A stretch of DNA of 41,894 bases. Source: Deltaproteobacteria bacterium RIFOXYD12_FULL_57_12. Its GTDB lineage: Bacteria > Desulfobacterota > Desulfobulbia > Desulfobulbales > BM004. The number at the start of each line of letters is the position of its first letter. The stretch's first letter is position 1. The position numbers were made by a program, and so were the translations under genes. Where the stretch lies: positions 13,365-55,258 of the forward strand of contig MGTE01000048.1 of assembly GCA_001799275.1 (NCBI GenBank), written 5' to 3'. A model generated the notes under the pieces. That model worked only from the letters and a program-made list of their open reading frames with translations, searched no databases and was not told the origin of the DNA. Of this stretch, positions 13,145 to 41,297 are shown one piece after another.

Positions 13145-16100
13145 TCATGACCGATCCTGCTCGGATGTCAGCGTCGGAGCCTCGGGCTCGTCTTGCTTGG
13201 TCCCATCGGCCAGGATCGTTTCCAGCGACTCTTCGTCCTCTTCTTCGTCTCGGCGGCCGGCCAAGATGGGCAGGGGGTCGGCGATCTGCCAGGCAGGCAT
13301 CGAGGAAAGCAGCGAGCTGAGGAGCATACCACCCCGCACCAGCCAGATCACGTACCCGACCGAGAGTCCGGTGGAAACAGCAATGGCGGAGCCCACCACC
13401 GTTCTTTCAAGCTTCGCCTCTGCCGTACTCTCTTCCTTCATGGAATCGAGGGACTTGCGGATCAATTCGTACTGGGCGACCGTCATCGGTTCAAAAAAGT
13501 ATTCGGTGTCTCCCAACACCGCGTTTGCCGGCAGCAGCCCGCTTGTATCCGATCCGCCGTAGAACTGCGATCCACCCTGGTTGCGGCCGACAATGCGCGC
13601 AAAACTCTCGGTCGCCGAATTCGCGCCCAGGCTCGATTGAGACCCAAGGGCGGATTTATCCTCGGCGCCGGCCTTGGCCCGGGCCATTCTATCCTGACCA
13701 TTCCCGGTGGCAAGGACAAAGTTTCTGAGGAGTTGCTGCAGGGTGTTTTCCCCTTTGTCTGCATCCCCGCTCTCGGCAGCCTCTTTCTCAGCCGTTGCCG
13801 GAGGCTCCACCTGTTCCATGATGTCAGGAAGGGGTGGCGTCTGCAGGATATCAATCCGCAGGTCGCTGCGTGGCGTGACACTGATCGCCGCAGTGGCAAC
13901 CCCGCTCTGGGCCGCCACCGTGATTCCGTCTTCCGACGATTCCACATTGAAGCTGCCGGCAGCGACAGATCCCGGTGTCGGTAAAAAACGCACACCGGCC
14001 TGCGCCTGGGCAAAGGTGATGAACGTGCCTCCCGGGATAGGGGTCAGGCCATCGGCCTGAAACAAGGTGCCGTTGGTTATGCCGCTTATTTTGAAGTACG
14101 CGACCTCGGACCCGTCAGCGGGATGTCGGTCGATCACGATGGGCCCGGACAACGTATTCTCGGCGGTTGTGATCGAAGCCACCATCGGGGTGTCGCCAAT
14201 CCCGATCCCGACTACCGGCTTGCTGTCGGTTACCAAGGCAATGCCATCATCGATGCGGACCGAGATGGTGAACGGCCCGTAATAATTGGCAGAAGGCGTA
14301 AAAACGATCGCGGCGAGCAGTCCATTCACCGCGCCGATGGGACCGCTCGCCGTCCAGGTGCCGCTTGCGGCATCGTAGACAGATGCCGTGGTCCCGACCA
14401 CGGATGTACTCAAACTGCCAGCCGCCGGCGCGGAAAGGCGAAGAGACGCAGTCACCGTTGCGCTGTCCGCGTCGGTGATGACGATGTCCGTCAGATTGAG
14501 GGGAGTATCCTCGACATACCTCTCCGCAGTACTCAGATTGGTAGCCATTGGTATGTCGTTCGACGGTGTGACATCGATAGCCAGCTGCGCTGCCACCGTA
14601 CCGAGGCCGGCATCGTTTACCGTGAACTCGAAGCTGGCAAGTGGCGCGCCGCTCGCGTTAGCAGCCGGCGTGTAGACCAGGTTGGCGATATCAGCCGCCA
14701 GGATCGTATCACCGTCAGTCGCCGCTACCCCGGAGAGTTTAAGCGTGCCACCGGCAAGGCTCTGGTTGTTGATCGTTACCGACACCAGGCCGTTTGCCTC
14801 GACATCGGTAAAGGTGAAGTCGCCGGCCACGAAGGTATAAGCAATGTCTTCGGCTGTGGTCACGGTGTTCTCCAGCGCCATTGGCACGTCGTTCACCGCT
14901 GTGACCTCGATGTCCAGCTGCGCTGCCACCGTACCGAGATCAACATCGTTCACCGTGAACTCGAAGCTGGCAAGTGGCGCGCCACTCGCGTTAGCAGCCG
15001 GCGTGTAGACCAAGTTGGCGATATCAGCCGCCAGGATTGTATCACCGTCAGTCACCGCCACCCCGGAGAGTTCCAGCGTGCCACCGGCGAGGTTCTGGTT
15101 GGTGATCGTTACCGACACCAAGCCGTTTGCCTCGACATCGGTAAATATGAAGTCGCCGGCCCCAAAGGTGTAGGCAATATCCTCGGCCGTTGTCACCGTG
15201 TTCGCCAGCGCCACCGGCACGTCGTTCACCGGCGTCACGTCCAGAGCTATGACGCCATCCGCCGGCCCTGCGCCGTCCTGATCCTCGATGTGGGTAATAA
15301 TGCTGGTGTCTGCGTCGTAATGCGTGGCCGGCACAAAGACCAGCGCCGCCAGGGCGGCGTTTACCTGGGCCACCGTAGCGGATATACTCCAGATGCCGGT
15401 TGCGTCCGTATAACTCTCACCGTTCCCGCTCGCCGCGGAGAGGCTGCCGGCACCGGGAGCAGCCAAAGTAAGGATGACGGTGATCGTTGCCCCGAAATCG
15501 ACATCTGTCACCACGATATCGTCAAGGGGGACAGACGGTGCGTCCTCGAGGTATGTCTGGGTCTGCGCCAGATTGGTGGCGGTTGGTGCATCGTTTACCG
15601 AGGTTGCATCCACCGAGGTGGTATTGTCGACCACCGGCCCGGCAAAGGCGTCATCGACCGTGATGCTGAAGGTAGTGGTTTCCACCCCCCCTGGCACCAC
15701 CCGGTTGTCGACAGGGCTGAAGACCAAACCGCGAATGGCATTGGTGGCAGCCGTGGCAGTGCCGGTGTAGGAATAGATTCCGCCGCCAAGATTGACAAAG
15801 CCGCCCAGGTTGGAGAGGTTGCCCTTCGCTCCATCATCGAGGGCAACCGTCACCTGCAGATCAGCCGGGTCCGGATCGGTGATCGTCACCGTGCCAAACG
15901 GCAGCAGGGTGCCGGTGTCGTTTACCGCTTGCCCGGCCACGGTGCCGCTGATGGCCGGTGCGTCGTTCATCGAGGTGGTGATGACCGTGGTCGCGTTGTC
16001 GGTGGCAGGGGCAGCGATGGTGTCGTCAACAATGATGGTGAAGGTGGTGGTCTCCGTATCATTCGGCGCCGCCCGGTTGTTGGCCGGTTCGAAGATCAGC

Positions 16101-19100
16101 CCCTGGATGGCGGTGGTGGCAGCGGCCGGGGTGCCGGAGAAGACATAGACTCCGGTGCCGGGTCCGGTTTCGACAAAGCCGTCCAGGTTGGTGAGCACCC
16201 CTTTGGCAGCATCGTCAAGGGCGACCGCCACGTCGAGACTGAGGCTGTCGGGGTCGTCGATGGTCACCGTCTGAAAGGGCGAAACGACAGCGGTGTCGTT
16301 GACGGTCTGGTTGCCGACCGCGCCGCTTATGGTGGGTGGGTTGTTGGCCGACCCCAGGTCGGTCACGGTCAGGATGCCGCCGACAAGACCACCGGCGGTG
16401 GCGGCATTGCCAAAGGCATCGCGGCTGAAATCGGCCGCGATATCCAAGGTGTCGGCCCCTCCCGCGGCACCGACGCCGGCCGTCGCCTCGATAGATGCCG
16501 CCGTCGCGGCGGTGAACTCGAGGACCAGGGTAGTGTTGTCGATGATAATCAGGCTGCCCACGTTGGCAAGGACAAAAGAGAGGTCCGGAGTTGTGCCGCC
16601 GTCGTCGTTCACGTCCCAGAGCAGGTGGCTCCAGTCGACGTAACCCTTGATGTCGGTACCTGCCGCAGCAATGGTGGTGAAATTGGTGCCGATGATGGTG
16701 AGGGTGTCGGTGGAGGCGTTGTAGTCGGCGCTGGTAAAGGTGGTAATCGGTGCCAGGGTATCCACCTGAAAGGATTCCGAGGTGACGTATTCGCTCGGGC
16801 TTGAACCGTCGTTAAGCCTGAAGCGCACCTGTACAGTACTGTTGTCAACGGCGCCCAGCAGGTGACCCGGCGCCAGGTCGGAACTTTTGGCAAAAAAAGT
16901 GAAGCTGTGGGTGGTGGCCGCGGCAAAGCTGGTGGCGGTGCTCCAGCCGGAGCCCGGATCAGCCCATCCCGCTGACAGGGCCGACGCGCCTACCGGTGTG
17001 TACCAGCTTGTACCGCCGTTATCGCTGTATTGAAAATCGAAAAGGGTGACTGCGTCGGCCTGGGGATCCCTGCCTTTCCAGGAAACAGTCACCGTGCCGC
17101 TGCCGTCGGCGGCCTGGGAGATCTGGGCCGCGGGGATCTCGTTATCGACCTGAAAACCGCCAGCCAGAGAAGTCGTTTGGTTCCACAAAAAGATATGGGG
17201 CTGGGTCACTGTTTCGGCGGTGCCGTTGTTCAATTCAGTCACCGCGCCCCAGCTCGTGCCATTCCAGAGAGCGTAATTGATATCGTTGCTCATGTCGAGT
17301 ACCGACAACATAATACCATTGCCGTCGGGATTTGGATCAAGGAAGACGCTGGTCGGTACGGCGCCGACATTGATGGACAAGCCTGCGATCCAGCCGCTGC
17401 CAGCCACCCAGGTCGCGGACTTGACCAAATTCGACGGCCCCGGCTCGCTGCAGACCGCAAGCGCCTCGCCGGACTGGGCTTCGAAGGCCATTGCCAAACC
17501 GGGGAAGGTGGTGCCCGGCGCCAACGAACCCCAGCCCACGGTATCGACGAAACCGGCCCCATCCCAGATACTAAGGACAACGGCGCCAGCGGTGTTTATA
17601 ACCCCCACTGCGATGCGGTCGCTGGTGGGAGCGCCGGCGACATCGATCCAGAGCGGCGCCCCGCCGCCGGTGGCGAAGGCCACTGTCTCCGCGCCCCATG
17701 AAGAGCCATCCCATACTCGATAGTACAGAAAATTCGTCGAGTTCTTGCCGTAAAAAACAAGGGCGTCACCGCTTTGCTCCTCATAAACAACAGTGAGCGA
17801 GGTCTGCTCCGTGGCGGCGATTCCCGTCGTATCGAGGGTTAGCGCATGGCCCCAGGCCGCACAGTCCCAGACCAGGACATAGTCGTCGGCATTACTGTCG
17901 CTCACCACCAGGACCATCTCATCGGTCAGAGGATTGGCAACAAGGCGGATCTGCTGGGGTTCAGCGCCTGGATAAACGGTGTTCGCAATCAAGGCCGGCG
18001 CTGTCCAGTTTTCGCCGTCCCATAGACTGTAGCGCAACATCTGGCCTGCCGGCCGAGTGCTGTCGTTCCAGACGAGAACCGCGTCGCCGGACTGCTGCTC
18101 GTAGGCCACGGCAACACCCCACCTGGCCGGGTTAGTTACCGTGCCCAACGGATTGAGCGGCAGGCCGTTCCAGACCGGGCCGTCGCCGATCATCCCGGTG
18201 ATGCTGCCCCCCGGCTCAATGCCGACCACGATCTTCTCGCCCCGGGTCGGAGCGTCGGCGCCCTGCACGATTCGCCAGCGGTCGGTAAGGGTAACGGTGT
18301 CCTGCTTGCCGGCAAAGGCCGCCCCGTCCCAATCGCTTTGCTTCGGCTTGTTGGTATTCTCTGACCAGAAAGCAGCGTCGAAATCGTACCCGCCGATGGG
18401 CACGATGAACCAGTCCTTGTTGTTGCCGCTGTCGACCGAATTGTAGGCGACAGCTGGTTTTTCGCCGGCATCGGAGGGGGAAGCCTCAGACCTGTGCAGA
18501 TCGACGTACTTGATCGCGGTCGCGGCCCCGTTCTTCAGGTCCACTTCCCACTTGGTCGCCCCGTCGGTGGAATCGAGACGGAGGAACTGGCCTGGCGCTC
18601 CCTGCAGGGTCAGTGTACCACCGGCGTTAATGGTATAACGCTTGCCGGCCTGAAAAAGCAGGGTATCGGCGACGGTGACCGTCTTGGTCAGGTTGTAAAA
18701 GGAAATATCGTTGGCGAGCAGGGACTGGCTAGTGCCGTCGAGAACAACGGTACCGTTGTTATGGTTGAAGGTGCCGGTTTTGACGATATTCCCGCGCACC
18801 GTCATGATGCCGCTCGAGGCAGTGAAGGTACCGCCGCTGATCGTGAGGTTACCGTTGATGTCAATGGCATAGGAGCCGCCGTTAAAGGTCTCGACGGATT
18901 CAAGGGCCGGGGTGGTGACGTTGCCGCCCGGGCTATATTTATGACTGTTCGGGAGGTAGAGCTCGATGCCGGCGCCGGTCACGGTGAGATCATTGCCGCT
19001 GACACTGTAGAGGATATCGGGATCGACCGCCGCTCCCTTGGCCGCGGCCAGGTCAGCGTTGGTGATGGTGCCGCCGTTGTCGTGCCGGACGATGAGATGG

Positions 19101-20074
19101 TTGGCATAGATATTGATATTGGAAAGAGCCGCGCCCTTGGCAACGGTGACAGTGGCGCCCTGGTAGGTGGGGTCGTTGTCGAGATAGAGCGCCATGGCAT
19201 CCCCGGCGCTGGTGTTGACGTTGAGGGAAAAACTACCAGAGGCATTAGTCAGCGTCGAGCCAACGCTTACTCCGTTTACCAGGAATTGGACCGAGGCGTT
19301 GGCTCCGATCGAGGTCACGCCCTCATCGGCATACACCGTACCTGAAATATTCACCACGGGCAGGAGATAGGTCCAGCTGGCGCGGATGCCGTCATCTACT
19401 GCCACAGCCGTTTCCACCGTTCCGGCGACGTATTCCAGAATCCAGTCGCCACCAAGCTTTGTGCTGCCTGTGGGATTGGTACTGGCCGCCACGTCGGCAC
19501 CGGTAAGGGTGCGAACTGCTTCGAGCAGCGACCTGCCTTCCTCGCCGGCGGCCAGATTGCAGCCGTAGAAAAGGATATCCGCCCCGCCGGTCAAAGCGCC
19601 TGCCCAACTTGCAAGACTCTCGGCCTGACGCTCGATGGTTTCGGCGGTCAATTGCCCGGACCCCAGGCGAACCACCCCGTCTCCGCCATGTGAAAAAACG
19701 TGCACGGCCGCAATTCCCTGATACTGCCGGAGGACCTCGGTGATCTGTTCGATTCCGTCACGGGCGCCATCCAGAACTACTGTGATCAGTTGTCGTCCAT
19801 CTTGATTCGTTGCCAATGAATCCAGCAACGGAGCCAGGCCATCGATATTTTGATCGACAAAAATAAGTTCCTGCGGCGACTGGCTGACGCTTTCCATGGC
19901 GGGGGGGGGCGAGACAACGACCGCGGCATCGGTCCAGAGGCCGGGCACAATCGGCCAGGAATCCACCGGGATCATCCCGGCGTCAATGGGGAGCAGCACC
20001 CCATCGCCGGACATCAGAACCCGCGGTTCGAGTTGTTCAAAGATCAGTCCGGTTTTCGGGTATCTCTTTATCAT
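13145..20074 (-). CDS. Giant LEPR-XLL / DUF4347 surface protein with cadherin-like repeats
   Basis: A 2309-residue predicted exported or cell-surface protein. The N-terminus has FEQLEPRVLMSGDG, the LEPR-XLL motif seen at the start of very large secreted proteins. A DUF4347 domain follows (about 65-240, with HVFSHGGDG and ILFYGCNLA). Next come beta-rich and propeller-like segments (about 560-1010), an FN3-like part, and a series of Ig/cadherin-like repeats with PTISG and VNDAPTA joints (about 1240-1960). Two neighbours at about 1616-1725 and 1726-1835 are almost identical. Near the C-terminus two hydrophobic segments (about 2210-2245) and an acidic tail suggest anchoring. An adhesion role is inferred. 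The start lies 38 bases after the UbiB-family stop and the kinase follows after 43 bases. No type I secretion genes are in the window. Confidence 0.87.
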   Translation of the reverse strand: MIKRYPKTGLIFEQLEPRVLMSGDGVLLPIDAGMIPVDSWPIVPGLWTDAAVVVSPPPAMESVSQSPQELIFVDQNIDGLAPLLDSLATNQDGRQLITVVLDGARDGIEQITEVLRQYQGIAAVHVFSHGGDGVVRLGSGQLTAETIERQAESLASWAGALTGGADILFYGCNLAAGEEGRSLLEAVRTLTGADVAASTNPTGSTKLGGDWILEYVAGTVETAVAVDDGIRASWTYLLPVVNISGTVYADEGVTSIGANASVQFLVNGVSVGSTLTNASGSFSLNVNTSAGDAMALYLDNDPTYQGATVTVAKGAALSNINIYANHLIVRHDNGGTITNADLAAAKGAAVDPDILYSVSGNDLTVTGAGIELYLPNSHKYSPGGNVTTPALESVETFNGGSYAIDINGNLTISGGTFTASSGIMTVRGNIVKTGTFNHNNGTVVLDGTSQSLLANDISFYNLTKTVTVADTLLFQAGKRYTINAGGTLTLQGAPGQFLRLDSTDGATKWEVDLKNGAATAIKYVDLHRSEASPSDAGEKPAVAYNSVDSGNNKDWFIVPIGGYDFDAAFWSENTNKPKQSDWDGAAFAGKQDTVTLTDRWRIVQGADAPTRGEKIVVGIEPGGSITGMIGDGPVWNGLPLNPLGTVTNPARWGVAVAYEQQSGDAVLVWNDSTRPAGQMLRYSLWDGENWTAPALIANTVYPGAEPQQIRLVANPLTDEMVLVVSDSNADDYVLVWDCAAWGHALTLDTTGIAATEQTSLTVVYEEQSGDALVFYGKNSTNFLYYRVWDGSSWGAETVAFATGGGAPLWIDVAGAPTSDRIAVGVINTAGAVVLSIWDGAGFVDTVGWGSLAPGTTFPGLAMAFEAQSGEALAVCSEPGPSNLVKSATWVAGSGWIAGLSINVGAVPTSVFLDPNPDGNGIMLSVLDMSNDINYALWNGTSWGAVTELNNGTAETVTQPHIFLWNQTTSLAGGFQVDNEIPAAQISQAADGSGTVTVSWKGRDPQADAVTLFDFQYSDNGGTSWYTPVGASALSAGWADPGSGWSTATSFAAATTHSFTFFAKSSDLAPGHLLGAVDNSTVQVRFRLNDGSSPSEYVTSESFQVDTLAPITTFTSADYNASTDTLTIIGTNFTTIAAAGTDIKGYVDWSHLLWDVNDDGGTTPDLSFVLANVGSLIIIDNTTLVLEFTAATAASIEATAGVGAAGGADTLDIAADFSRDAFGNAATAGGLVGGILTVTDLGSANNPPTISGAVGNQTVNDTAVVSPFQTVTIDDPDSLSLDVAVALDDAAKGVLTNLDGFVETGPGTGVYVFSGTPAAATTAIQGLIFEPANNRAAPNDTETTTFTIIVDDTIAAPATDNATTVITTSMNDAPAISGTVAGQAVNDTGTLLPFGTVTITDPDPADLQVTVALDDGAKGNLSNLGGFVNLGGGIYSYTGTATAATNAIRGLVFSPVDNRVVPGGVETTTFSITVDDAFAGPVVDNTTSVDATSVNDAPTATNLAQTQTYLEDAPSVPLDDIVVTDVDFGATITVILTLAAPGAGSLSAASGNGESYTDATGIWSISATVAQVNAALAALVFVPATHYDADTSIITHIEDQDGAGPADGVIALDVTPVNDVPVALANTVTTAEDIAYTFGAGDFIFTDVEANGLVSVTITNQNLAGGTLELSGVAVTDGDTILAADIANLVYTPAANASGAPLASFEFTVNDVDLGTVAAQLDIEVTAVNDVPMALENTVTTAEDIAYTFVAGDFTFTDVEANGLVSVTINNQSLAGGTLKLSGVAATDGDTILAADIANLVYTPAANASGAPLASFEFTVNDAGLGTVAAQLAIDVTPSNDIPMATNLSTAERYVEDTPLNLTDIVITDADSATVTASLRLSAPAAGSLSTSVVGTTASVYDAASGTWTASGPIGAVNGLLAAIVFTPSANYYGPFTISVRIDDGIALVTDSKPVVGIGIGDTPMVASITTAENTLSGPIVIDRHPADGSEVAYFKISGITNGTLFQADGLTPIPGGTFITFAQAQAGVRFLPTPGSVAAGSFNVESSEDGITVAAQSGVATAAISVTPRSDLRIDILQTPPLPDIMEQVEPPATAEKEAAESGDADKGENTLQQLLRNFVLATGNGQDRMARAKAGAEDKSALGSQSSLGANSATESFARIVGRNQGGSQFYGGSDTSGLLPANAVLGDTEYFFEPMTVAQYELIRKSLDSMKEESTAEAKLERTVVGSAIAVSTGLSVGYVIWLVRGGMLLSSLLSSMPAWQIADPLPILAGRRDEEEDEESLETILADGTKQDEPEAPTLTSEQDRS
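14570..15225 (-). repeat. Two near-identical cadherin-like repeat units in the surface protein
   Basis: Two consecutive units of about 109 codons each start VPVALANTVTTAEDIAYTF and VPMALENTVTTAEDIAYTF. They share almost all residues, including ILAADIANLVYTPAANAS. The DNA is also nearly identical over long runs, which points to a recent tandem duplication or gene conversion. The other repeats of this protein are much more diverged. Confidence 0.85.
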
Positions 20075-32869: not shown

Positions 32870-34504
32870 TCATTCCTTGACCGAGCCCTTGAAGCGTTCG
32901 TAGAGCTGCCGGCCATCCTCGTCGCCGAGATCCGCGGCCTTTTTCAGGTCCTTCACCGCGGATTTCAGATCGCCCTTATGATAGAAGGCCCCGCTTCTCT
33001 CGACGTAGGCCCGGCTGTGATCGAGGTGCAGGGCAATGTACTTGTCCCAGCCTCTGATGATCCGGTCCCAATCCTTTCTCCTTGTTAAAACCCAATCAAG
33101 AAGGAGAAAGGTATCGAAGTCGTTGGGATCCAGATCAACAGCCCGATCGAGATCGACCAGGGCGTCATCGAGCTTGTTCTGGTCGATGAGCGCCTTGGCC
33201 CGCCGGAGGTAAAGAATGGCGCTGTCCGGATTGGCCCGTAGCGCGTTGTTGTATTCCCCGATCGCCGCCTGCGGGTCGCTGCTTTTCTGATGGGCGTAAC
33301 CTTTCTGCTCGAAACCGATAGCAAGCCGCTTCTTCTGCTCCGCAACCGCCTCGTTGCCAGGGCTCAAAATATCCGCCTGCTCAATGTCGCGGAGCGCCTC
33401 GTCTCGCCGCTTCATGCTGGCGAGAATTTTCGACCGGAGGTCATAGTAATCGCAGTCGTGAGGCCACAATTCGATGGCGCGGTTGATGTCCCGGAGCGCT
33501 TCGTCCGCCTTATCCAGGAAGAATCTGATGCCAGCCCGCCTTTTCAGAAACATCCCGTCATCACCAAACGAGATGGCCTTTGTCAGCAGCAACTCAGCAT
33601 TGGCATAGTTGCTCTTTGAGGCCTCCAGGTCGCCGGCATCGTAATAGGGGTACCCTTGCAGGATCGCCAGTCTGGGATTCTGCGTAAGATACCCGATCGA
33701 TTCGTCGATGATCTCCTGCATTTCTTCGTATGAGCCTCCCCATCGGGGGGTAATGCCGCTCAGGTACTTTGCGCGCAGGTGGAGAGACGCCGGTTCCACC
33801 TCCAGCGCCTTTGCCAGCAGTGGTTTCCCGGCTCTGGGCTTATTTGACCTGTCCATCCCGACCAGCAGATAATAAGGCATGATGCCTTTCGCATGTCTCT
33901 GCAGGGCCTGCTGAATGTCTTGTTCGGACTTGGAGAGGTAGAATTTCATCTCCTGGAACTGCTTGTCCGAAGTTTCCGAAGCCCACTTGCCGCCCCTCAA
34001 CTCAAATGCCAAGTTGTAGAAGTACTTGGCTCGGGCAAGGTAAGGGAGATAGGAGTTGGGAAACTCCGCAATCCAGCGGTTGAACAGACTCTCGTACGAG
34101 CGATCGTTGATCCAGAATGCCTCGTAGGCGGCGATGATGTCATCCTCGAGGCGCACATCCCTTATCGCCGCCTCCTGGCGCTTCTCAAGCAGCGCATTCA
34201 GGTCGGCGAACTTCCCCTGGAACAGCATGGAACGGATCTGGGGGATGGGAGAAACGCCTGTCGTTACGACATCCCGGCCCGCCGGGAACGGTTTCTCCCT
34301 GTGATTATCGACGGGCCTGGACACCCCTGCTGGCAGGCTCTGCTGCGGAATGGTCTGCGGGGCAGGCTTTTGCGCAGAAGCGGGCGGCGGGTCATCGCTA
34401 AAGTGGACGCCGCCCTTTTCATCGACCCATCGATATATTTTGCCGTACGCCGCTGTATTCCAGGCCAGGAACAACGCCAGAGCAACGAGAATCATCTTCA
34501 TCAT
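32870..34504 (-). CDS. DUF4124-TPR repeat exported protein
   Basis: A 544-residue protein. The signal peptide MMKMILVALALFLAWNTAAYG is followed by a DUF4124 module, KIYRWVDEKGGVHFSDDPP (about 22-40), a small envelope domain common in proteobacteria. A proline-rich linker follows, then roughly nine tetratricopeptide-type helical repeats to the end. AGAGG precedes a double ATG at 34499-34504, and I use the first. TPR arrays bind other proteins, so this is probably an envelope scaffold. It stands between the AT-rich secreted-protein genes and the EF-hand gene, all on the minus strand. Confidence 0.82.
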   Translation of the reverse strand: MMKMILVALALFLAWNTAAYGKIYRWVDEKGGVHFSDDPPPASAQKPAPQTIPQQSLPAGVSRPVDNHREKPFPAGRDVVTTGVSPIPQIRSMLFQGKFADLNALLEKRQEAAIRDVRLEDDIIAAYEAFWINDRSYESLFNRWIAEFPNSYLPYLARAKYFYNLAFELRGGKWASETSDKQFQEMKFYLSKSEQDIQQALQRHAKGIMPYYLLVGMDRSNKPRAGKPLLAKALEVEPASLHLRAKYLSGITPRWGGSYEEMQEIIDESIGYLTQNPRLAILQGYPYYDAGDLEASKSNYANAELLLTKAISFGDDGMFLKRRAGIRFFLDKADEALRDINRAIELWPHDCDYYDLRSKILASMKRRDEALRDIEQADILSPGNEAVAEQKKRLAIGFEQKGYAHQKSSDPQAAIGEYNNALRANPDSAILYLRRAKALIDQNKLDDALVDLDRAVDLDPNDFDTFLLLDWVLTRRKDWDRIIRGWDKYIALHLDHSRAYVERSGAFYHKGDLKSAVKDLKKAADLGDEDGRQLYERFKGSVKE

Positions 34505-34574
34505 CGGCCACCTCTTCTGTACGAGCAGTTTTTCTGTCAACTGTTAACCTATCAATCAAACACCCTTTTGGTCT

Positions 34575-35279
34575 TCAGAATGTTAGGATTTTCCATTCAC
34601 CCCGCATATCTTGGATAAAAGTAAGCTGAAATGAGTACCTTTGCCCGTCTCTTGTAGTAATTAAATGATAATTAACTGAACCACCTGATATATTGGCAAA
34701 AACAATTTGATTTTCCTGGGCGATTTTTAATCGTTCTGCTGGACGAAGCGTTAAAAAATGTCTTTTGAATGCTTCCTTCGACCTATCGGCAAAATAGTTT
34801 ATGGCTAGCTCGATGTTATTGTTAGCTAACGCCTTACACATTTTACTCCAAATTGATTTAAGGTTTTGGTCCAGCTCTTTTTTCCCCTGTTCAGATAAGC
34901 TACTGAGGTCCTGAGGTTCTTTAGAATTTTTCAAATTTTCCCAGTTATTATTTACAATGTCTTCTTTTTGCTTCACACGTTCTAGTTGATTTTCAGATAG
35001 TTCTTTCTTCGCATCTTTGATTTTGCGGGCCAATTCGTTTATAAAATATTTTTCTTGGGTGGTTAAATTATTCATTATTTCCGGTTTACTACACGCTGTG
35101 AACATCAATGCGGTTCCTGCAAGATCATTATATGGAAATTTTTTCATTTGGTTGGATTTGTCATGTATGAAATCCCTGCAAATTGACGTCTGATTAAGGA
35201 TAAATTCTTCCGGAGTACTGTGGGAAAGATTTGGAAAAAAAACAATAAAAGCCAAGATTAGAATTGGTTTTGTCTTCAT
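34575..35279 (-). CDS. Secreted protein of unknown function, AT-rich gene
   Basis: A 234-residue protein. A signal peptide (KTKPILILAFIVFFPNLSHS) is followed by a lysine- and asparagine-rich, helical middle section. A C-terminal beta-like part, ISGGSVNYHLITTRDGQRYS, resembles the small NTF2- or DUF4878-like fold used in lipoprotein stalks, but that is only an impression. TGGAG precedes the ATG. The coding DNA is clearly richer in A and T than the genes on either side, which suggests acquisition by transfer. No family recognised. Confidence 0.7.
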   Translation of the reverse strand: MKTKPILILAFIVFFPNLSHSTPEEFILNQTSICRDFIHDKSNQMKKFPYNDLAGTALMFTACSKPEIMNNLTTQEKYFINELARKIKDAKKELSENQLERVKQKEDIVNNNWENLKNSKEPQDLSSLSEQGKKELDQNLKSIWSKMCKALANNNIELAINYFADRSKEAFKRHFLTLRPAERLKIAQENQIVFANISGGSVNYHLITTRDGQRYSFQLTFIQDMRGEWKILTF

Positions 35280-35501
35280 ATCATATTGACTCCATGAGTG
35301 GATTTGCTAATTGACCAAGAAATGCTCGGCTCATGATTTTTTCCCAGGTGTGTCGTCTGGGAGTATCATAGAGGACTTGAGGTTATAAGGTTTGTTACAC
35401 CAAACATCTTTAACAGACAAAGAATCTTATAATCTGACGTACGTCCCCTCATTGCTCCCACTATGCCAGGACACGCAGAGTAGCTATCAACAGGACAGCC
35501 G

Positions 35502-36095
35502 TTATTTTTGCCCCATCCGCTGTCGTGCTAACGCTGCCAACTCGCGAGCCTGCTTGGCGTTCTGTATGGCTTTATTGCCATTTTCAGTTTGCGTAGAGGC
35601 AATGCTATCCCAAATTCGAGCGGCGTTCTCGAAGGCATTAATGGCGTTTTGCCATTGTCCGGATTGGGCATAAGAATTTCCTTGATTGTATTGGCTAGCC
35701 GCCTGTTCGTATATCTCCACGACTTTGACTTGCGCTTCCACGATTTGGACTTGCGCTTCCTTCTGAGCTTCGTACTTACGTTGACTCTCCAAGTATCTCT
35801 TGATGTTTGATACGTTTTCTCTGCATAATTGGACATTTGCCTTGGAAGATTTTTCGATCTTTGGGCAACGGCAGTTTTTCATCAAAGATGCTTTCTGGTA
35901 ATATTTTTCTGCCGTTTCATAAAGTTGAATTGCCCTGGCCTGTTGTTTTTGTTCCGACGCCGCCATAGCACTATTATATAGTCTTTTAGCTTCATCCATC
36001 GTATCGTCGCATATGTCCGCGGAAACATATAACGGATGGGCAAGAACAAGTAACAACGCTGCCACGAAAACAAACATGTTTTTCGTACCGTTCAT
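35502..36095 (-). CDS. Secreted helical/TPR-like protein of unknown function
   Basis: A 197-residue protein. A signal peptide (MFVFVAALLLVLAHPLYVSA) is followed by a helical repeat with AKRLYNSAMAASEQKQQARA and a TPR-like QYNQGNSYAQSGQWQNAINA. Between them are a coiled coil, KYEAQKEAQVQIVEAQVKVV, and four cysteines (two in CRC, one in the first mature residues, one in VQLC) that could form disulfides. The ATG at 36093-36095 has a purine-rich GGGAGAGAGAGG upstream. The open frame extends another 65 codons without signal or family likeness. Like its neighbour at 34575 it is AT-richer than the region. Unknown role. Confidence 0.7.
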   Translation of the reverse strand: MNGTKNMFVFVAALLLVLAHPLYVSADICDDTMDEAKRLYNSAMAASEQKQQARAIQLYETAEKYYQKASLMKNCRCPKIEKSSKANVQLCRENVSNIKRYLESQRKYEAQKEAQVQIVEAQVKVVEIYEQAASQYNQGNSYAQSGQWQNAINAFENAARIWDSIASTQTENGNKAIQNAKQARELAALARQRMGQK

Positions 36096-36346: not shown

Positions 36347-38287
36347 TCAGTTTGCCGCGAACTCGTCTTCCAGATGGATCGCATCCGCCGGAAAAAGACC
36401 GAGCGCTGTGATCTGCCGTTGGGCCGCAGTGACATCGGCCGTAAAGAGCACGACGATCAGATCTTTCATGGCACGCGTACAGCATACGTAAAAGAGACGC
36501 CTAGTCCTCTCGACAGCCGTTTCTTCTCCCTCGCGCCTGTTTGCCTCGTCTCTGTCTGAGAGCGGCTTGATTCCCAAATATTTGTCATAGGAGAATTGAA
36601 CGTGGGTACCCTCATCATCGTCTAGGACAACAAGCACGCGCTCAAATTCCGCACCCTTGATGCCTTGCTGTGTCGAGAACGGAGAGTCGTTGTTCACGTA
36701 TTTGTAGTAACCCCAGAACTGAGGCGCCGGGCATGCGAGGAAGGCGTCCATAGCCGAAACTTCCTTGGTAAGCTCTTCGCCGTCATCCTCAGCAGCCTCG
36801 GCGTTGTAGCCTTCCTCCGCTTCGACTTGGGCTGGCAGATTCAAATATGAGAGCACCCGCGGGTCAAGGGCGATTACCCTCGACTCATGAATATGACGAA
36901 GAACATCGGCATTGGTTGCGTCTGATCCCAGTTCCATCATCTGCTGAAGGCTCTCGGTAAATCGGCGCAGCTCGCCAAGCCGTTCAGCTACGTTTACCCC
37001 GATCAGGTTTTTGCGGTCCAAGAGCGGTGATTGGCTTCTGAGAATCTGCATCGCCTCGAACTCGTTACCCTTCTTGCTGGCGTTCACAAGCGGCAGAACA
37101 AAGTTGTTGAAGGGGCGCACCGGCCACGCGGTCCCGTCCAGGAATCCGTTTTTGAACTTCTCTGGAGCCTTATCATTCAGTGCCGCGTACAGATCGTTGA
37201 ATCCCAGCCGCTTGGCGGCCATTCGGTGGACGATGACGAGGAGCTTCACGGCTTCATTGCCCTCATCTGTAAGCCACGCGGGATCATCATTTTTTCCAGC
37301 AGCCCAAGCGCGTACCTGTGCGATCCGCTGATCGCGTCTCTCGTCAATGGGAAGGATGAAGAGGTGCGCGCTGCCTGGCACGCTGACCAAAGCATCCTCC
37401 GGTCCGATCATCCTGCCACGCTTCTGAACTAGGCCATCCCCGTCTCGTCGGATCGCATTAGCGACACTGAGTACAGTTGCAGGACATCGGAAATTTTCTG
37501 GCTTCGTGATGTTCACCCAACCCAGACCAGCCGAGATTGCGCCGATCCCTGTCGGGTAGATGCGCTGCATCGGGTCACCAAAGAAACCGAGACAAAACCG
37601 ATCTCCCAGTTCCTCATCCACCGCTTTGAGAGCCACCACGACGTTCTCCATTGTGTCCTGACTCTCATCGACAAAGAGAAACGGATATTGTTGGGCGAGA
37701 AGGCTCCTCATCAACGGACGCTCGACTATGAGCTGCGGCACCATTTTTATGATGTCGTCGTGGCCGAGGATTCCGTTAACGTAGTCGCTACCCGTTCCAT
37801 AGGTGAAGGAGCGGACTCGACTAATTCGCGCCCGCTGCTGTTCATAGCGGGCCATGTCGCTCTGGCTCTTGTCGCGCGTGCGCTGCTGCACGCGAGGCCC
37901 GAAATTTGCCGCTGTCTCCCGTAGCTTCACGAGTTTTTCGTCAATCCGATTTATCACCCACCCCTGGATGTCAGACTGGAATGACCGAACCAGCGACCAA
38001 AAGAAGCTATGAATGGTCGCGACGTGGACGAGGGGATTGTTCCCCACATCCGCCCAAATCTCACTGGCCGCGATAACCGTGTAAGTGACGCAAGCGACTT
38101 TCTGTCGGCGCAGCTTCAGTCTTTCGCCATGCTTGTTGAGGATCTCTGCGAGCCCCTTAATCAAGGAAGTGGTCTTCCCAGAGCCGGCTCCCGCGATCAT
38201 CAAGAAGCTTCGCGGTGGCGATGAGTTCAGGCAGTCGTAAAGCTCCCGATCCGCCTCGGTATCTTTTTGTTGAGCGCGGCTGGTCAT
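36347..38287 (-). CDS. gajB: UvrD/PcrA-like helicase, GajB-like
   Basis: A 646-residue superfamily 1 helicase. Motif I is AGAGSGKTT (32-40). Motif Ia is in ACVTYTVIAASEI, motif II is VDESQDT (about 205-211), and motif III is GDPMQRIYPTG. Motif IV is near NFRCP, motif V is in STQQGIKGAEFERVLVV, and motif VI is in FYVCCTRAMKDL (about 597-608). Its ATG overlaps the stop of the OLD nuclease gene in an ATGA, so the two are translated together. This OLD-plus-UvrD pairing defines Gabija anti-phage systems, in which GajB works with GajA. It is longer than the roughly 500-residue GajB of Bacillus cereus, so a divergent subtype is likely. Confidence 0.85.
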   Translation of the reverse strand: MTSRAQQKDTEADRELYDCLNSSPPRSFLMIAGAGSGKTTSLIKGLAEILNKHGERLKLRRQKVACVTYTVIAASEIWADVGNNPLVHVATIHSFFWSLVRSFQSDIQGWVINRIDEKLVKLRETAANFGPRVQQRTRDKSQSDMARYEQQRARISRVRSFTYGTGSDYVNGILGHDDIIKMVPQLIVERPLMRSLLAQQYPFLFVDESQDTMENVVVALKAVDEELGDRFCLGFFGDPMQRIYPTGIGAISAGLGWVNITKPENFRCPATVLSVANAIRRDGDGLVQKRGRMIGPEDALVSVPGSAHLFILPIDERRDQRIAQVRAWAAGKNDDPAWLTDEGNEAVKLLVIVHRMAAKRLGFNDLYAALNDKAPEKFKNGFLDGTAWPVRPFNNFVLPLVNASKKGNEFEAMQILRSQSPLLDRKNLIGVNVAERLGELRRFTESLQQMMELGSDATNADVLRHIHESRVIALDPRVLSYLNLPAQVEAEEGYNAEAAEDDGEELTKEVSAMDAFLACPAPQFWGYYKYVNNDSPFSTQQGIKGAEFERVLVVLDDDEGTHVQFSYDKYLGIKPLSDRDEANRREGEETAVERTRRLFYVCCTRAMKDLIVVLFTADVTAAQRQITALGLFPADAIHLEDEFAAN

Positions 38288-40557
38288 AGCGCCGCCTCCG
38301 CGTCGCCCGCTGCTACAGCAGCCGCAGGCTCGATTACCTCCGGCAGTGGTGCAGGCTGCTCGAGGCTGACCACGCTAGCGAGCCATTGCAAACCTTCTTT
38401 GATGTAGAGCGGCACATTCCAACTCGCGGGGTGTTCGGTCAGAACGCCCAGGGCGAACTTCGTCTTATCGAACGACTTTCCACTGACTCGTTTGTGGAGG
38501 CCGGACGCAAGTTCGGCGGGTGTCCCGGGGTTCCCACGAAGCTTCAGACCGACGTGCTGTTGAGTCGCAGCCTGGCACCATGCTGCGTTTTCAAGCCCAA
38601 AGGCCTCTTCCAGCGTTCGCCCGCGCAGGCTGGCCGTCGCGCCATTCCATGTCACATTCGTCGGGACTTGATAAGTCACGCGGACCTTGAAGCCGTTGCC
38701 GCCTTCCGCCTGATGTAACTTTTCGTCGTCGGTCGCAGCGAGCAGCTCCGCAACCGTCTGCTTTTTTGGTAGCCACTGGATCAAAGTCTGGTTTGAAGTG
38801 AGCGCGCCCGGCTCAGATGGCAAACACGCCTTGCCGGATTTCTTCACAGGCGGCTGATCTGCTTCGGCGCTTGGAACCTCGAAATCTGTATCTTCGTCCT
38901 CATCCTCCTCACCGGCAGCAACGAACTTCACACTGTCCAAGTCGGTGATCACGAGCGCAACAAGACCGAGGAACTCAATCAGTGACTTGAAACGATAGGC
39001 AAAGGCACCGCCTACCTCCAGAATGGACAGGCAGGACGACCGCAGGGAAACAGCTTCCTTCTCCTGCTCAATCATTACAGGGAGCAGGAGCCGCTCAACG
39101 TTGCCCTCGACGAGAATGGCTGCGTCCGCGAAGAAAAGGTCGCAATGAGTTAGCTTCAGATACCTTTGCAGGAAATCCCGCTCGTTCGGGGTCTGGCTGT
39201 AGAACACGGAGAGATTCAAAACCTCGGTCGTCTGCTCGCCACCAATATTCTGCCGCCTGAAATATCGGATAGGTTGGAAGCCACGTTCATAGAGAATATG
39301 AGGCGAGTGGGTCGTCACGACCGTCTGACTTTGGAAAACGCCGCCGTCCTCTTCGCCACCCTTCATGAGATCGAGGACGTTTCGAATAAAAACCTGCTGA
39401 AGCTGGGCGTGAAGATGCACCTCTGGCTCCTCTATGAATACCAGGTGCAGTAGAGCGCGTTGCTCCTTGTCCGCGACCCATCTGCCGTGATGGTCGAGTA
39501 TCTCGACCACCATATAGATGAGGTTCTTAAAACCGAGGCCGTTGTAGGTGTCGGGAAGCCTAAGAGCCTCCGCGCCATCACCTAGAACGTAATGCACGCG
39601 AGCATCCTGACTACTCATGATTGTGGCTGGGTTGAGAGCCGACTTGATCTCTAGCCGGGGATTATGGAGGCCAGGATAGCCGAGCTTTGAGAGGCGACAG
39701 AGCGTGTCTTTGAACACGTCGGCCAAGTGTTCATTAAGCCCAATCTCGGAGTCGAATAGCGCCCTAAGTGCGCTGTGGTCTTCCTGCCGTTGATCGAGGT
39801 TGCGTTTGTAGAACCTGCTTAATCGTTTGGAGAGGTCTTCGGATCGCCCTGCGCCCGTTACTGTGCCCGCTACCGGGTCGGTCAAATGCCGTTGCGCACT
39901 AACATTATCGACCTTGATGAGGGATTTTAGGATCGCCGCGCCGCTAGGCTCCTTGCCAAGTAGCAGTGGCTCGTATCCCTCATGAGGATTGTGAACGTCA
40001 TCGAACTGAGCCCGATCGAGGGCGTAATACTTGAACTCAAATTCATTCTGAAGCTCGTTCTTGAGATAGTCGGTCAGGTTTATTGGCCATGGCACATATT
40101 TTTCATTCTCCCGCTTTACCAAAGCGGCCGCCTTTGTCTGAGCTTCCGCGCGAGCTGCACGGAATTTTGCCAGAAGCTCCGTCGGATTACGCGGCGCAAA
40201 TTCTATCCGAATACCGACTTGCGTCCCGCGCCACGCCGTACTCGGCAACAACGGCATCACAAGGTAAAGGTCGTTTGCTGTCACCTCGAACCAAAGGTCC
40301 AAACTTATCGAAGGAAACTCTGGCTGTTCCGCGCCGCCCGCGGGAAGGTTGCCGAGGTTGTCAAAACCCCTCCAGCAAACCGAGCTAAAATCGTACAGGG
40401 AAAACTTAGAGCCGGATGCAAATGAGTACAGTGCCTGTGTTGCCGAGGTCTTCCCGCTGTTGTTCGACCCGACAAAAATTGAAATATCAGAGGCAAGCTC
40501 GATGTAAACATCTCGCAGCCGCCTGTAGTTCTTTATTCTGTATGAGTGTAGATGCAC
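38284..40557 (-). CDS. gajA: OLD-family ATPase/TOPRIM nuclease, GajA-like
   Basis: A 757-residue class 2 OLD protein. The N-terminal ABC-type ATPase has Walker A GSNNSGKTSA (30-39). A long insertion follows, then a signature-like YNGLGFKNLIYM, Walker B LVFIEEPEVHLH (about 371-382) and the H-loop TTHSPHI. The TOPRIM nuclease part has AILVEGNVER (about 478-487, catalytic Glu) and VITDLDS (about 535-541, D-x-D). An acidic low-complexity insert, EEDEDEDTDFEVP, follows directly. The gene starts with GTG at 40555-40557, preceded by AGGGGG. GajA in Gabija is a nicking endonuclease controlled by nucleotides. At 757 residues this one is well over the usual 580, mainly through the ATPase insertion and C-terminal tail. 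Confidence 0.87.
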   Translation of the reverse strand: MHLHSYRIKNYRRLRDVYIELASDISIFVGSNNSGKTSATQALYSFASGSKFSLYDFSSVCWRGFDNLGNLPAGGAEQPEFPSISLDLWFEVTANDLYLVMPLLPSTAWRGTQVGIRIEFAPRNPTELLAKFRAARAEAQTKAAALVKRENEKYVPWPINLTDYLKNELQNEFEFKYYALDRAQFDDVHNPHEGYEPLLLGKEPSGAAILKSLIKVDNVSAQRHLTDPVAGTVTGAGRSEDLSKRLSRFYKRNLDQRQEDHSALRALFDSEIGLNEHLADVFKDTLCRLSKLGYPGLHNPRLEIKSALNPATIMSSQDARVHYVLGDGAEALRLPDTYNGLGFKNLIYMVVEILDHHGRWVADKEQRALLHLVFIEEPEVHLHAQLQQVFIRNVLDLMKGGEEDGGVFQSQTVVTTHSPHILYERGFQPIRYFRRQNIGGEQTTEVLNLSVFYSQTPNERDFLQRYLKLTHCDLFFADAAILVEGNVERLLLPVMIEQEKEAVSLRSSCLSILEVGGAFAYRFKSLIEFLGLVALVITDLDSVKFVAAGEEDEDEDTDFEVPSAEADQPPVKKSGKACLPSEPGALTSNQTLIQWLPKKQTVAELLAATDDEKLHQAEGGNGFKVRVTYQVPTNVTWNGATASLRGRTLEEAFGLENAAWCQAATQQHVGLKLRGNPGTPAELASGLHKRVSGKSFDKTKFALGVLTEHPASWNVPLYIKEGLQWLASVVSLEQPAPLPEVIEPAAAVAAGDAEAAL

Positions 40558-40796: not shown

Positions 40797-40816
40797 CCGT
40801 ATTGGAGGTACGAACC

Positions 40817-41050
40817 ATGGGCGCACTCACCAAAAGGGCAACAGTCTATTTTGATCCCGCCATGCACCGGGCGCTGCAGCACAAGGCCCTGGCGACATCC
40901 CGATCCATTTCCGATATCGTCAACGACGCGATACGTCATGCCTTGGCCGAGGATGCCGAAGACCTGGCAGCCTTTGAAGAGCGGGTCAACGAGCCGCTGG
41001 TTTCCTACGAATCCGTGTTGAAAGAGCTCAAGGCCAATGGCCGTCTATAG
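40817..41050 (+). CDS. relB: RelB-type ribbon-helix-helix antitoxin
   Basis: A 77-residue protein. TKRATVYFDPAMHRALQHKA is a typical ribbon-helix-helix N-terminus for DNA binding, with SRSISDIVNDAIRHAL as the second helix. The acidic C-terminal part would wrap the toxin. The ATG at 40817 has GGAGG eight bases upstream; an in-frame TTG at 40802 overlaps that Shine-Dalgarno and is rejected. The end of the gene overlaps the toxin start by 14 bases. It should bind the palindromes in its own promoter. Confidence 0.88.
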   Translation: MGALTKRATVYFDPAMHRALQHKALATSRSISDIVNDAIRHALAEDAEDLAAFEERVNEPLVSYESVLKELKANGRL

Positions 41051-41297
41051 CATCTTTTTTAAAGATTCGGTAACGAAGGACCTGGATTCCATCCCCAAAA
41101 ACGACCTGCGACGGATTATCGAGAGAATAGGCGACCTTGCCGCAAATCCCCGTCCCGTTGGCTGCGAAAAACTCTCCGGTCAGGAAAAATACCGCTTTCG
41201 TCAGGGGAATTACCGCATCATCTATTCGATACAAAATACCCAACTGACCGTCTGGGTGGTCAAGGTCGGCCACCGTCGGAAAGTCTACCGAATCTAA
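41037..41297 (+). CDS. relE: RelE/ParE-superfamily toxin
   Basis: An 86-residue basic protein with the RelE fold pattern. It runs YSIFFKDSVTKDLDSIP, then a helix DLRRIIERIGDLAANPRP, then strands GCEKLSGQEKYRFRQGNYRI, IYSIQ and VVKVGHRRKVYRI. R-x-G-x-YRI-Y and the final GHRRKVYR are hallmarks of the RelE branch, whose members cut mRNA in the ribosome. ParE-like gyrase inhibition is less likely given these residues. It is translationally coupled to the antitoxin and seems intact. Confidence 0.9.
   Translation: MAVYSIFFKDSVTKDLDSIPKNDLRRIIERIGDLAANPRPVGCEKLSGQEKYRFRQGNYRIIYSIQNTQLTVWVVKVGHRRKVYRI

Follow-up and report, generated by a model that had tools for sequence, protein, structure and literature searches.

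The window, by which we mean the whole 41,894-nucleotide stretch of DNA analysed, carries on its minus strand two open reading frames (ORFs) at the positions proposed in the initial annotation, the first with a GTG start and the second with an ATG start (Table 1). The junction between them reads GCGCTATGACC, and the stop of the first gene and the start of the second share an ATGA. In Pfam searches, the product of the first gene matched AAA_15 (E 7.9e-43) and OLD-like_TOPRIM at residues 475-541 (E 9.1e-15), and that of the second matched UvrD-helicase (E 7e-15); the SF1 motifs checked in the helicase (I to VI) are all kept, and motif II is DESQD. The description of the locus as an OLD ATPase-TOPRIM gene that overlaps a UvrD-like helicase gene by ATGA was therefore accurate in its ORFs, domains, and junction. 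Both products are also longer than the classic proteins, as had been claimed, with 757 and 646 aa against 578 for Bacillus cereus GajA (BcGajA) and 494 for BcGajB (PMC10822852); a Paenibacillus pair near the Bacillus type has 591 and 505 aa. The acidic insert that had been placed directly after the TOPRIM D-x-D is present as the run E550-E560, downstream of D539-x-D541.

Table 1. Positions of the gajAB genes and their parts in the window
Feature	Position	Strand	Evidence
gajA (long form), OLD-family ATPase-TOPRIM nuclease, 757 aa, GTG start	38284..40557	-	PADLOC PDLC00095 + Pfam
gajB (long form), UvrD-like SF1 helicase, 646 aa	36347..38287	-	PADLOC PDLC00143 + helicase motifs
gajA stop/gajB start overlap, ATGA	38284..38287	-	
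GajA ABC/OLD ATPase domain (AAA_15, residues 4-421); Walker A K36, Walker B E376/E377, H-loop H417	39295..40548	-	Pfam; invariant 84/84
GajA TOPRIM domain (residues 475-541): E484, G485, E488, D539, D541	38935..39135	-	Pfam + alignment
GajA linker after TOPRIM D-x-D (residues 542-586), 45 aa, net charge -8	38800..38934	-	
Acidic core of GajA linker, E550-E560 (EEDEDEDTDFE)	38878-38910	-	
GajA C-terminal helical nuclease part (residues 587-733), invariant T648, E650, K698	38359..38799	-	
GajA C-terminal tail (residues 734-757), unconserved, low model confidence	38287..38358	-	
GajB Walker A, AGAGSGKT, residues 32-39	38171..38194	-	Motif check
GajB motif II/Walker B, VDESQD, residues 206-211	37655..37672	-	Motif check

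Both Proteins Match Gabija Models over Their Full Length

When the proteins were compared with full PADLOC profiles, a check that the initial annotation had proposed, both were identified as GajA and GajB over their full length. The best match of the 757-aa protein is the GajA model PDLC00095 (E 2.9e-270, residues 2-738, 752-position profile), and that of the 646-aa protein is the GajB model PDLC00143 (E 6.8e-241, residues 1-640, 632-position profile). NCBIfam returned distant relatives only, all below their cut-offs. The pair thus combines the OLD-type ABC ATPase fused to TOPRIM that characterizes GajA with the adjacent UvrD/PcrA/Rep-like helicase, downstream in the same operon, that characterizes GajB. 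A pair near the Bacillus type matches another PADLOC GajA model, of 574 positions. PADLOC thus has GajA models of both sizes, and the source pair clearly belongs with the large ones. We conclude that it is a genuine large-type Gabija, a form that is already in the defence catalogues.

Long GajA Proteins Form a Clade That Has Travelled with Its Helicase

In a maximum-likelihood phylogeny built from 44 GajA sequences without the linker and tail columns, the source GajA lies in a well-supported long clade (25 rows, support 100/99), itself nested in a clade of large GajA proteins (35 rows, 100/99). The short, Bacillus-like GajA proteins (six rows, 100/99), among which BcGajA-type proteins fall, stand separate. 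Three branches of this tree, those of P2 Old and of two distant relatives, are very long and leave its deep root unsure. The nearest rows to the source protein are Deltaproteobacterial, Burkholderiales, Verrucomicrobial, and Planctomycete proteins. The suggestion that the pair could be a distinct subtype is thus borne out as far as a phylogenetic clade is concerned, but not as a novelty: the clade already lies within the curated GajA and GajB models, so the subtype is no discovery.

A scan of bacterial genomes yielded 80 loci with 45-85% identity to the source GajA, from Proteobacteria, a Deltaproteobacterium, Planctomycetes, Verrucomicrobia, Bacteroidota, Actinobacteria, and others. Because these loci were chosen by GajA similarity, the phyla are a sample, whereas the presence of the helicase is an independent observation. 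A helicase gene lies downstream of gajA in all 80, and the frames overlap in 77, indicating that the pairing is not due to chance. The overlap is 4 bases long in 49/80 (ATGA in 45 and GTGA in 4) and 8 bases long in 25/80; at two loci the genes are 3 bases apart, and one locus has an interrupted gajA. In short Gabija pairs the overlap ranges from 4 to 11 bases or gives way to a small gap. The ATGA overlap is therefore not the hallmark of Gabija for which it had been taken. Pairwise distances of GajA and GajB in the long set (81 pairs) are closely correlated (Mantel r 0.96, p 0.0005), which indicates that the two proteins travelled together.

Among the relatives of the source organism the system is rare. 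A close copy was found in one of 57 other relatives (86% identity) and in none of 11 same-family genomes, and among 243 genomes sampled across the class the source and the 86% relative were again the only two with close copies. A search for the empty site in the same-family genomes with two flanking genes gave no match there. Long-clade genes are carried on plasmids of Rhizobium, Sinorhizobium, Klebsiella, and others. This patchy presence, together with the plasmid copies, is typical of an accessory system that has spread horizontally.

Some individual loci deserve mention in their own right. In the Klebsiella plasmids CP052288.1 (L104 12001-14246) and CP052287.1 (115146-118596), gajA is matched in pieces while gajB is annotated, and one of the two records has an IS3 transposase at gajA, apparently a long Gabija in decay. 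The filamentous Pseudomonas phage PfAC02b (L109 3977-7899) carries a GajA-GajB pair of its own, a distant large relative of 647 + 660 aa. On a Phaeobacter plasmid (L105 12000-16579), genes for a DNA repair exonuclease and an AAA ATPase come immediately after large gajAB, in an SbcCD-like order.

Active Sites and Location of the Extra Length

Each catalytic residue of GajA that is named in Table 1, in the ATPase, the TOPRIM domain, and the helical part, is invariant in 84/84 long-clade members. In a direct alignment, BcGajA has E379, E383, D432, and D434 where the source protein has E484, E488, D539, and D541. The profile alignment to the structure of Burkholderia pseudomallei OLD (BpOLD; PDB 6NK8) ends before T648, E650, and K698, and these three are probably the counterparts of BpOLD T506, E508, and K562, as judged from their pattern and conservation (for residue roles see PMC10822852 and PMC6755086). 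The nuclease site accordingly contains the glutamate, the D-x-D, the second metal site, and the lysine of a TOPRIM active site, four residues being aligned with solved structures and three assigned by pattern and conservation.

A model of the nuclease part alone reached a pLDDT of 90.6, and its closest solved structures are BpOLD and Xanthomonas OLD (XccOLD), followed by BcGajA; the superposition on 6NK8 gave a TM of 0.39/0.55 and an rmsd of 7.9. The model of the full-length monomer is moderate (pLDDT 73, pTM 0.60), and its comparison with GajAB gave low global TM-scores (~0.2-0.35 by query length); we rely on it for the fold family alone. A search of a viral structure library returned nothing significant.

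According to the initial annotation, the extra length of GajA lies in the acidic insert and a long C-terminal tail. From E484 onward the source protein has 274 residues, and most short GajA proteins have ~190-213 (outliers 168 and 246). Roughly half of the extra length, however, falls in the ATPase part, with 338 residues before N339 compared with 251-258 in short GajA; from N339 to E484 there are 145, compared with 122-126 (one outlier, 141). The ATPase part of BcGajA contains a dimerisation insert (PMC10781630). The "long" tail amounts to just 24 poorly conserved residues past 733, and we rejected it as a functional domain on account of its size, lack of conservation, and low model confidence.

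An Acidic Loop Beside the Nuclease Site

In the 84 long-clade proteins, the linker from D541 to T587 comprises 29-72 residues (median 51) and has a median net charge of -11; the charge is -5 or below in 76/84, and in 61/84 the linker ranks in the top 1% for acidity among equal-length stretches of its own protein. In large GajA proteins that do not belong to the clade, this position is occupied by 17-30 residues, with charges of 0 to +6 and one of -1. On the GajA tree the acidic state requires three changes, for example one gain and two losses. The acidic stretch need not be simply disordered: in the nuclease-part model, built from a shallow alignment, it forms short strands (~542-545, 557-561, and 571-577) with a block pLDDT of ~82 or more.

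BcGajA has a lysine-rich specificity loop, K436-K442, at the same position, and its cleavage becomes non-specific when the lysines are replaced (PMC10822852). The source GajA has no such lysine-rich loop and is acidic there, so that in the long clade, by sequence, the charge is reversed at a site of known importance. We found no description of this GajA charge reversal in the open-licence papers searched. It is the only new lead to come from the locus; the rest is known.

What the acidic loop does is a matter of interpretation, and the altered triggering envisaged in the initial annotation, like any effect on the choice of substrate, would be conjectural. The linker may be a neutral, drifting spacer without a regulatory role, which would be compatible with the identity of the system as Gabija. 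Its length and sequence vary freely, and eight of the 84 members (Actinobacteria and Magnetococcales) have a short, near-neutral version of 29-32 residues with a charge of -4 to +3. Against this, the charge is one-sided in most of the clade and absent from the large relatives outside it, and neutral drift would not be expected to keep it over such divergence; we regard a spacer as a serious candidate, though it has somewhat less than an even chance. That the loop serves as an electrostatic gate is a speculative suggestion drawn from its charge and position, and we hold it to be doubtful to tentatively plausible. In its full form, in which an acidic, DNA-mimicking lid has replaced the basic loop to give a sequence-independent nuclease that is shut electrostatically and opened only by DNA fed from GajB, we consider the idea unlikely, but if true it would mean that there is a different self/non-self switch within Gabija.

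Genomic Context and Alternative Identities

Among the window genes tested, no other PADLOC defence genes were found near the pair, and toxin-antitoxin genes were the only such neighbours. A divergent ribbon-helix-helix antitoxin and ParE toxin pair lies just upstream of gajA (40802-41297), and a Phd/YefM antitoxin gene followed by an ORF for a PIN-like toxin lies at and beyond the right end of the window (L092 1904-2684). On the other side, a segment at 34501-36000 with a GC of 0.40 (~0.55 around it) may be a recent insertion; two small function-unknown proteins adjoin the defence pair there. Elsewhere, the window encodes a 2309-aa protein (13145-20074) with DUF4347 and cadherin/Ig-like domains and an LEPRVLMSGD-like N-terminus, likely a large surface protein, and the same contig has an esterase-like gene with a shortened, rearranged second copy (L092 4088-4831 and 5278-5829).

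Several relatives have defence genes as neighbours. The clade member on Sinorhizobium meliloti pC lies beside Shedu and an E1-E2 type gene, that of E. coli EC26 beside a type I restriction system, and that of E. coli 2017.20.01CC with a DUF262 pair near conjugation genes; a Sphingomonas relative outside the clade is flanked by Shedu and AbiE. A PADLOC and Pfam scan of 116 neighbouring ORFs, run without a control set, gave matches to type I/III restriction, MADS, and NERD-UvrD; we give these no weight as a test.

An OLD nuclease and a UvrD helicase could instead constitute a housekeeping module for recombination or repair. Both families have repair members, the remaining genes of the window are ordinary chromosomal genes, and one archaeal OLD class works in the cell cycle rather than in defence (PMC12796447). 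Housekeeping modules, however, are kept vertically, whereas this pair is patchy among relatives, has its nearest kin spread over phyla, occurs on plasmids and beside conjugation genes, and has defence genes next to its clade relatives; we judge a repair function to be improbable. That the pair belongs to another OLD-type defence system has next to nothing in its favour. The protein has a weaker match to AriA (E 1.6e-52) and one to retron_eff_Eco8 (E 5.4e-14) that is far below the cut-off, but the GajA models score far higher than either, and the architecture of the pair refutes such an assignment. PARIS (AriA-AriB), in which ATPase and TOPRIM are on separate proteins and there is no helicase, is ruled out by the fused TOPRIM and the overlapping helicase gene. 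A class 3 OLD of the retron Eco8 type would have a reverse transcriptase and an ncRNA beside it; no such gene was found among the flanking ORFs examined, and the Eco8 effector model reached 52 bits where its cut-off is 250. A lone class 1 OLD such as P2 Old is ruled out by the helicase partner, present at this locus and at 80/80 related loci.

The identification as Gabija is supported by the full-length PADLOC matches, the tree, and the invariant catalytic residues. We therefore predict, with a probability of roughly 85%, that the pair is a horizontally acquired, long-form Gabija anti-phage system. We found no published phage test of any long-clade member.

A Working Model for the Long Form

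By analogy with the Gabija systems that have been studied, GajA would form a tetrameric core braced by GajB, and its ATPase part would keep the nuclease closed as long as the cell is healthy. The trigger of Gabija has been ascribed either to nucleotide depletion (PMC8136825) or to phage DNA ends without RecBCD (PMC12407980). If the latter applies here, GajB would engage exposed phage DNA ends that are not occupied by RecBCD, and GajA, thus released, would cut the phage DNA with two metals. In the Pseudomonas aeruginosa model RecB is needed for self protection (PMC12407980); the host genome of our pair encodes RecB (906 bits, above the curated cut-off), so a DNA-end trigger is possible in this organism, and by analogy we give it about even odds. 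Specific to the clade, and speculative, is the proposal that the acidic loop acts as a DNA-mimic lid by the active site, one that has to move aside to let DNA in. With such a lid in place of the lysine loop, the sequence specificity of BcGajA would be expected to be lost, and the released long form might cut like BpOLD, with no sequence preference.

Comparison with Known Systems

The Gabija models of PADLOC (GajA, PDLC00095/PDLC00093; GajB, PDLC00143/PDLC00111) resemble the source pair in their end-to-end matches, gene order, and overlapping frames; they are equally large (752 and 632 positions), and there is no difference at the family level. The solved type system, from B. cereus VD045, likewise pairs an OLD ATPase-TOPRIM protein with an SF1 helicase, but its GajA and GajB are ~180 and ~150 aa shorter, a lysine-rich loop stands where the source GajA is acidic, its near kin form a separate GajA clade, and motif II of their GajB is of the DEYQD type rather than DESQD. 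Nearly all structural work on Gabija concerns this one short Bacillus system, whereas a large, widespread branch has the reversed charge by the nuclease site; conclusions on specificity, nucleotide sensing, and viral inhibitors may therefore not carry over to that branch.

The class 2 OLD proteins BpOLD and XccOLD (PDB 6NK8 and 6NJV; 594-595 aa) are the best structural matches to the TOPRIM part and appear to have the T-x-E and K pattern (metal B and catalytic lysine) in common with the source GajA; we did not see an acidic loop described for them (PMC6755086). In P. aeruginosa PA14 Gabija, the GajB motif is reported as DESQ, as in the source GajB, and it is the targeting of ends lacking RecBCD by that system (PMC12407980) that we have adopted as the working model. 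The Gabija of Providencia stuartii has a GajA of 736 aa, which shares its large size with the source protein and whose critical E465 is compatible with the 690-aa group as well as with the long clade; it is active against T4 in E. coli DH5alpha (PMC12935923), indicating that a large GajA is able to defend.
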